DNA of 64,000 bases from Selenomonadaceae bacterium (GTDB lineage Bacteria; Bacillota; Negativicutes; Selenomonadales; Selenomonadaceae): contig JAFUXN010000083.1 of NCBI GenBank assembly GCA_017477125.1, positions 1 to 64,000 on the forward strand, in the 5' to 3' direction. Below the pieces are notes generated by a model that saw only the letters and a program-made list of their open reading frames with translations, was not told where the DNA came from and made no database searches. A program made the translations under genes and the position numbers. Of this stretch, positions 59,157 through 60,268 are shown piece after piece (position 1 is the stretch's first letter; each line of letters begins with the position of its first letter).

Positions 59157-59189
59157 TCACTCTCAAGAACATCGTCGACAAAAAAATTG

Positions 59190-59227
59190 GGAGCCGCCAC
59201 CCCCTCGCGGGGCAACGGCTCCTTTTT
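59190..59227 (+). terminator. Terminator after copA
   Basis: GGAGCCG and CGGCTCC enclose an inner CCCC/GGGG stem and are followed by TTTTT, 33 bp after the stop. Confidence 0.85.
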
Positions 59228-59252: not shown

Positions 59253-60268
59253 TCAATAGGCGACTTCATGTTTGACGCGGTCATGCTCCTCCGACCGCTT
59301 GGAGTTGTTCCATGAATTGATATCTCCGGTGAGATACACCTGTCAGTGGACTGTTTCTTGCTCCGTAGAGCGAGCGTGTTCAGTCTCTGCATTCAAGTAG
59401 ATCACATCAAAATCCAATATCCTCGAGCGATGTTTTCTAAGTCGAGCTCGCATTGATTCAGCCGCCCGACCGCAATGATCCGCAAGGTATCTCGCCGCCG
59501 CCTTCGTCGACTCAAACACCATCTCCACGCCGCCGCCAACGAGCTTCACTGCCTTCATTCGTTCGCGACGAGCCGCCTCGAGATTCTTCGAGCCGCGAGC
59601 AGATATGTTTGTGTGGTCGCGATTCTTCATCTGCTCGCTCTTGGTCACGTATCGAAGGTTCCGATAGTCGTTGTTGTGAGAATTTCTGTCGCGATGATCA
59701 ACCTCATATCCGTCCGGCTTATCGCCAAGCCAGCATTCGGCAACAACGTGAGCAATCGAAACGCGTTTGACCTTGCCTTTGAGGTTCACCCAAGTAAAGT
59801 AGTAGCCGACGCTCGAATGATGCATGTCCAAGACGATGCGGCTTTGCTTTTTAGACTTCACATTTCTGAAGATGGTACCGTTACTGTTGACCTCATAGAG
59901 GAATTGCAATGATTTGATCTTCCTGAACTCAAGATTTGAGCCTTCACTCATCCCTTGATACCCTCCCGATTATTATTTTACTTCTGCGCCGCGTCGGCGG
60001 CACCGGTCGAGAGAACTCCGTCAAAACGGATTTACGCTACTTTGCGGGCATCTCTACCCGTTATGCGTCTGATGCGTTCAAACTTCGGTCCGCGCAACTC
60101 GTAATTCAGATCGATCTTGCCGTCCGCGCACCCGACCACCTCAATCTTCTTGAGCGGCTCCGTCGTCCGCTCCCGTACGTAATCGACATAGTGTTGAGTC
60201 TCTTGCTCCGTCACGTCCTCGAGCCCGATCACCACTACCTCGACGCCGTCTACCACCCTGCCATTCAT
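59253..60268 (-). CDS. NrdD-like small protein gene, split by a group I intron
   Basis: Exon 1 (60268-60056) codes MNGRVVDGVEVVVIGLED to FERIRRITG; exon 2 (59336-59253) codes YLTGDINSWNNSKRSEEHDRVKHEVAY and a stop. Joined, they give 98 aa with the FERIRRITGYL...NxxKRxEEHDRVKH pattern of the small proteins annotated as anaerobic ribonucleoside-triphosphate reductase (NrdD C-terminal-like). Unspliced, exon 1 runs seven codons into the intron and stops. The third of three tandem ATGs (60268) is best spaced from AAGGGAG. It lies 57 bp downstream of prfA. Its biochemical role is unclear. The match of both halves, in register, to one family is the main support. Confidence 0.8.
59337..60055 (-). mobile_element. 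Group I intron with HNH endonuclease gene
   Basis: A 719-bp insert. The 5' exon ends CGGGT and pairs with GCCCG (60049-60045), giving P1 with the required U-G pair at the splice site. The adjoining GAGAT (60054-60050) pairs with ATCTC of exon 2 (59335-59331), giving P10. TCCG/CGGA (60030-60017) forms P2. GTTC (60016-60013) pairs with GAAC for P3. The R-like GCAGAGACTGAACAC (59390-59376) and S-like AAGAAACAGTCC contain P7, GACTG (59385-59381) with CAGTC (59353-59349). GCTC-TACG-GAGC (59371-59360) is P8. The last intron base is G. Elements were read by eye and not folded by computer. Confidence 0.85.
59343..59951 (-). CDS. HNH homing endonuclease of the group I intron
   Basis: The 202-aa protein has an N-terminal NUMOD4-like part (FLYEVNSNGTIFRNVKSKKQ), an HNH nuclease centre (VDHRDRNSHNNDYRNLRYVT, then SEQMKNR), and a C-terminal NUMOD-type DNA-binding helix region (MVFESTKAAARYLADHCG). 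Such enzymes cut intron-less alleles and cause intron homing. The 3' end of the gene overlaps the catalytic core of the intron (P7-P8), and its stop lies six bases before the 3' splice site. The start at 59951 is preceded by GGGAGGGTATCAAGGG. It is the only obvious mobility gene in the window. Confidence 0.88.
   Translation of the reverse strand: MSEGSNLEFRKIKSLQFLYEVNSNGTIFRNVKSKKQSRIVLDMHHSSVGYYFTWVNLKGKVKRVSIAHVVAECWLGDKPDGYEVDHRDRNSHNNDYRNLRYVTKSEQMKNRDHTNISARGSKNLEAARRERMKAVKLVGGGVEMVFESTKAAARYLADHCGRAAESMRARLRKHRSRILDFDVIYLNAETEHARSTEQETVH

Follow-up and report, generated by a model that had tools for sequence, protein, structure and literature searches.

The stretch of DNA analysed here (64,000 nucleotides at its full length, hereafter the window) comes from a Selenomonadaceae genome and carries on its minus strand a small gene that is divided by a 719-nt insert between codons 71 and 72. 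The two halves are in register only once these 719 nt are removed, and the joined exons then form 98 uninterrupted codons. Features of the locus are listed below in window coordinates, in the direction of transcription.

60056–60268, minus strand: exon 1 of the gene for a putative small glycyl-radical subunit; 213 nt, 71 codons, ending ...FERIRRITG; homologous to uninterrupted genes (loci L003-L016)
59337–60055, minus strand: probable group I intron; 719 nt with a terminal G; missing from orthologues, with covariation over 31 related introns
60045–60049, minus strand: 3′ strand of P1, GCCCG, pairing with the exon end CGGGU (60060-60056), with U-G at the splice site; same pairing in relatives
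60034–60038, minus strand: 5′ strand of P3, AGCGU, pairing with 59377-59373; the first in-frame TAA starts at its last base
59961–60015, minus strand: helix UUCUCUCGA/UCGGGAGGG enclosing a further hairpin, in the region of P4/P5 or P6; covariation over 31 introns
59343–59951, minus strand: ORF of an HNH homing endonuclease inside the intron, 202 aa; Pfam HNH_3, E=2e-11
59373–59385, minus strand: 5′ strand of P7, GACUG (59385-59381), and 3′ strand of P3, ACGCU (59377-59373)
59360–59371, minus strand: P8 hairpin, GCUC-UACG-GAGC
59349–59353, minus strand: 3′ strand of P7, CAGUC
59253–59336, minus strand: exon 2 (YLTGDINSWNNSKRSEEHDRVKHEVAY, then stop); 84 nt including the stop codon; purifying selection in intron-bearing alleles
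59180–59222, minus strand: terminator-like hairpin and T run directly 3′ of exon 2, read from the sequence

Without splicing, translation would stop at a TAA codon that lies in frame 22 nt inside the insert; the resulting 78-aa product would end in ITGRDARKVA and lack the remainder of the radical loop. The gene is flanked by prfA and a copper ATPase gene, neither of which was seen next to small genes at other loci. These immediate neighbours gave no sign of a prophage, and a prophage origin of the gene was rejected.

The similarity of the small protein to NrdD is confined to the final residues of the latter, among them the R-x-x-G-Y-L glycyl-radical motif. Its Pfam and NCBIfam matches were to NrdD only (Pfam NRDD, 7e-7, profile end 533-562), with no sequence relation to the radical domain of pyruvate formate-lyase (PFL), and the radical-loop residues of Prevotella copri NrdD (PDB 8p23) align with it at E=1e-8. 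The intron junction is located directly after the codon of the glycyl-radical glycine. AlphaFold predicts the radical loop of the protein with low confidence (mean pLDDT 64), and a Foldseek search of the predicted structure against the PDB gave no significant match. In other parts of the phylum, stand-alone small genes are sparse but present. Eight Selenomonadaceae encode paralogues of the small protein (L162-L169) that have its N-terminal domain only, lack the radical loop and mostly end in RAVNN.

Intron core and endonuclease gene

The insert combines the U-G pair in P1, the terminal G and a covariation-backed P3/P7/P8 core with pseudoknot topology, which are distinguishing features of group I introns. 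In addition, the GAGAU preceding the 3′ strand of P1 pairs with AUCUC of exon 2 to form P10. The complement of the intron's own P3′ strand is present in 29 of the 31 type A introns (the HNH-encoding type, described below), compared with a mean of 4.8 and a maximum of 12 after shuffling, and their P3 strands pair by compensatory change across an ORF of ~600 nt. Two forms of P7, GACUG/CAGUC and GACUA/UAGUC, are represented among these introns. Upstream of the HNH ORF lies a 10-bp helix with 99.7% canonical pairs over 31 introns, against 70% when permuted, and the covarying helices located between P3 and P7 are compatible with an assignment to either P4/P5 or P6.

The Rfam model RF00028, which is a detection aid and not a defining trait, gave no match in the window, either at the gathering cut-off or at E<=10, so that the match anticipated in a preliminary description of this DNA is absent. 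At E<=1, no group I match was obtained at these introns over 14 relatives. The same model matches the T4 nrdD intron (control, E=5e-27), which indicates that it misses the intron family described here. Other elements named in the preliminary description were recovered: the exon and insert boundaries proved exact to the base when re-read, P1, P10, P3, P7, P8 and the final G are present in the sequence, and the gene within the insert that was thought to encode an HNH enzyme and to overlap the core has the Pfam match given above. The last HNH codons run through P7-P3′-P8-P7′ of the ribozyme core, and the catalytic HNH motif (DH...NN..NL) is legible in the sequence.

Introns in Quinella and viral contigs

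The genus Quinella comprises rumen bacteria. Among genus relatives, uninterrupted genes were found at 14 loci, and these orthologues read ...RRITGYL... throughout; homologues ending naturally at ITGRDARKVA, which the preliminary description had set against such intron-less relatives, were not found. An insert is present at exactly the same codon in ~20 Quinella genomes. One syntenic place beside mscS occurs in three states in relatives (empty, with an HNH intron and with an ORF-less intron); the window copy lies not there but next to prfA. Inserts of type A, to which the window intron belongs, are about 660-740 nt long and contain the HNH ORF, while those of type B are 203-391 nt long, lack an ORF and show group IA motifs like those of the T4 nrdD core (the subgroup was assigned by eye), with P7 as GCAUA/UAUGC and GCUUA/UAAGC. 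Two unlike intron types thus occupy one site in different Quinella. Only intron-bearing copies of the small gene were found in 14 of the 36 relatives, most genus genomes being incomplete MAGs; the window genome has two intron-less copies as well (C33, C36).

Two side observations concern other introns. At L041, L048, L051, L053 and L056, C or G replaces U at the 5′ splice site, the change in the glycine codon being silent. The window's own genome also contains an IStron-like element (L069, G000:C57, 1656-2906 and 3053-3384, minus strand), in which an RF00028 intron lies beside a TnpB-like ORF in an apparent phage tail gene.

Relatives of the HNH enzyme occur both in viral contigs and in Quinella introns, and the named genomes with such relatives include Quinella sp. 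1Q5 and 2Q5. In the HNH tree, one group (support 97/92) unites the window sequence with 14 of its 15 relatives from Quinella or Selenomonadaceae; L042 is nearest to the window, and the remaining relative (L041) falls among viral sequences. Viral contigs carry the same HNH-type intron in nrdD, at the same codon or 1 nt further, and some carry it in a short NrdD-like frame (L031). Judging from these sequence comparisons, the HNH intron is likely to have moved between phages and hosts, in one direction or the other. The intron-less alleles represent possible targets of the HNH enzyme.

In intron-bearing alleles, the median dN/dS is 0.12 for the exons joined in frame and 0.03 for exon 2 taken separately (simple Nei-Gojobori counts over pairs that are not independent). 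Since exon 2 lies beyond stop codons, it could hardly be selected unless joined to exon 1, which is the best available argument for splicing; on this basis we infer that the intron is spliced in the cell. The main support for regarding the insert as a group I intron thus comes from intron-less alleles, covariation and the selection acting on exon 2, and not from Rfam; this evidence also favours the earlier proposal that a small NrdD-like chromosomal gene requires splicing. In the window genome, which has two intron-less copies and a full-length NrdD, splicing of the window copy need not be vital.

A candidate two-piece class III ribonucleotide reductase

Class III ribonucleotide reductase (RNR) is described as a single chain, NrdD, with a glycyl radical of its own and NrdG as its activator. 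The chromosomal NrdD of 26 genus genomes stops just past the zinc finger, typically as ...CPHCHRKE..GTFHI.RL. A hidden intron with a loop exon downstream of the truncated nrdD was considered and rejected, as no radical-loop exon was present in the flanks fetched for these genes. An alignment showed both the zinc finger and the cysteine of the finger loop (MGCRT) to be retained in the large NrdD chain of the window genome. This genome also encodes a full-length NrdD (C27), in a neighbourhood of phage-like appearance. Neither a class I nor a class II RNR was found in any of 21 genus genomes, among them that of the window. The same result was obtained for two single-contig (closed) genomes, G106 and G116, in which both a truncated NrdD and the small gene are present.

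The gene order is truncated nrdD, small gene, nrdG (the latter recognised by eye from its radical-SAM start) in four other Selenomonadaceae, with an overlap of 14 nt between the small gene and nrdG in three of them. The small gene adjoins or overlaps nrdG, again recognised by eye, in two further relatives; in Quinella itself it is found beside neither nrdD nor nrdG. Within a sample of the class, a stand-alone small gene is present in 22/22 genomes with truncated NrdD and absent in 36/68 others (Fisher p=2e-6, uncorrected for kinship, with counts read from tables by the author). A two-piece class III RNR is the simplest account of the truncated NrdD, the apparent lack of class I and II enzymes and the nrdD-small gene-nrdG order, and the small gene most likely encodes its radical subunit, as far as can be judged from sequence and gene context. 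Neither a split NrdD nor an intron at the radical site was found in the open-access literature (subscription journals were outside the scope of the search), and in a word search the Quinella genome paper (PMC9585023) yielded neither introns nor RNR.

Several further peculiarities of nrdD genes were recorded. The frame of a second, otherwise full NrdD (L105, G007:C116) stops exactly after KFERLRRITG and is therefore probably interrupted at the same site. The truncated NrdD proteins of L144, L145, L146, L153 and L161 have cysteine-rich ends (DNCC, ASCCD, NCCTE, ASCCE and NCFCC), which recall the redox tails of class I and II RNR. Large nrdD frames of 943-1149 aa contain an in-frame, intein-like insert of ~350 aa near profile position 270 (G007:C19, G010:C15, G015:C67, G016:C6, G017:C65, G031:C122 and G032:C439). 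RF00028 group I introns are located in or beside the large nrdD of several Quinella (G011:C148, G023:C61, G034:C7 and G062:C2).

Proposed mechanism, alternatives and known systems

We consider it about 87% probable that the locus consists of a mobile HNH group I intron placed directly after the radical-glycine codon of a stand-alone class III RNR radical subunit. The transcript would fold into a ribozyme, with GTP attacking at the U-G pair of P1, and the exons would be joined at GGU|UAU to encode the 98-aa protein. The small protein would then receive the glycyl radical from NrdG and dock on the large NrdD, which in these bacteria retains the thiyl-cysteine barrel and the zinc finger, its own radical loop having been lost. 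By cutting intron-less alleles at the conserved codon, the HNH enzyme would allow the intron to spread. Both the endonuclease activity and the action of the radical in trans are presumed here. Points against this reading are the negative RF00028 scans, the intron-less copies and additional full-length NrdD of the window genome, the weak AlphaFold model with no PDB match, the C or G at the 5′ splice site of some relatives and the incompleteness of most genus genomes.

The role of the small protein may be different even if the intron is real: like YfiD/GrcA, it could be a spare part that repairs oxygen-cleaved NrdD, and not an obligate subunit. Many other class members do encode a full-length NrdD plus a stand-alone small protein, and the prediction of spare parts for other glycyl radical enzymes (PMC8683613) can be cited for such a role. 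However, NrdD is encoded without a radical loop in 26 Quinella genomes, and no other RNR was found in the two closed genomes of the family, so we regard the repair function as unlikely.

It is very unlikely that the window copy is a pseudogene, destroyed by an HNH insert that is never spliced out, with the work done by its two intron-less paralogues. The intact state of these paralogues and the silence of Rfam on the insert speak for such a reading, but exon 2 is intact and under strong purifying selection across intron-bearing alleles, 14 genus genomes yielded interrupted copies only, and the RNA core is maintained by covariation. Joining by ribosome bypassing or by an intein, instead of RNA splicing, would also explain why the reading frames of the two halves match only once the insert is removed. 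The early in-frame TAA, an HNH ORF that is not fused to exon 1, and the conserved group I core with its P1 and P10 guides make joining at the level of translation or protein so improbable as to be practically negligible.

A further idea, which we judge rather unlikely, is that in part of Quinella the intron-interrupted gene could be the sole gene from which the radical subunit of class III RNR is made. A GTP-dependent ribozyme would then be an obligatory gate on the synthesis of DNA precursors, and splicing may regulate it by nucleotide supply.

If the radical loop is indeed a separate protein, the architecture of this essential enzyme would be new, and radical transfer from one protein to another could be tested in a natural setting. 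Unlike introns at the radical codon, together with one syntenic locus that has empty alleles, provide a clean case for the study of intron site choice. The locus also suits the study of introns at sites that the host cannot lose and of passage between phage and chromosome, and its introns constitute a group I family invisible to Rfam's standard model.

The closest parallel is the T4 nrdD (sunY) intron with I-TevII, which likewise combines a group I intron, a homing endonuclease and a class III RNR gene, and whose group IA core motifs are resembled by the type B Quinella introns. However, the T4 intron is a phage and not a chromosomal intron, encodes a GIY-YIG enzyme and sits near nrdD codon 180, far from the radical loop; on account of this position it was rejected as a same-site homologue. 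In phages, nrdD is frequently interrupted (PMC3653736, PMC12363816). Group I introns split it there as well, with splicing backed by metatranscriptomes, but the interrupted gene is that of a full-length phage NrdD. Group I introns of bacterial protein genes are known in flagellin, recA and nrdE (Hausner et al., PMC3984707) and in dsrA (PMC4853749). The former three likewise interrupt bacterial protein genes and show partial phage kinship; the introns described here differ from them in their stand-alone radical-subunit host, in the presence of two types at one codon across the genus and in being negative for RF00028.

With regard to the enzyme, the loop of Prevotella copri NrdD (PDB 8p23) is the C-terminus of a single chain of 743 residues, unlike the separate small protein. 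The split class II RNR NrdJa/NrdJb (PMC9669993) is likewise composed of two chains, but it is B12-dependent, has no glycyl radical and is cut elsewhere. Spare-part radical proteins had, as of 2021, been validated only for PFL, others being predicted (PMC8683613). The protein concerned, YfiD/GrcA, is likewise small, duplicates the radical loop of its large partner enzyme and serves PFL in trans, whereas the Quinella protein would serve NrdD, has another N-terminal extension and has a partner that is permanently without the loop.
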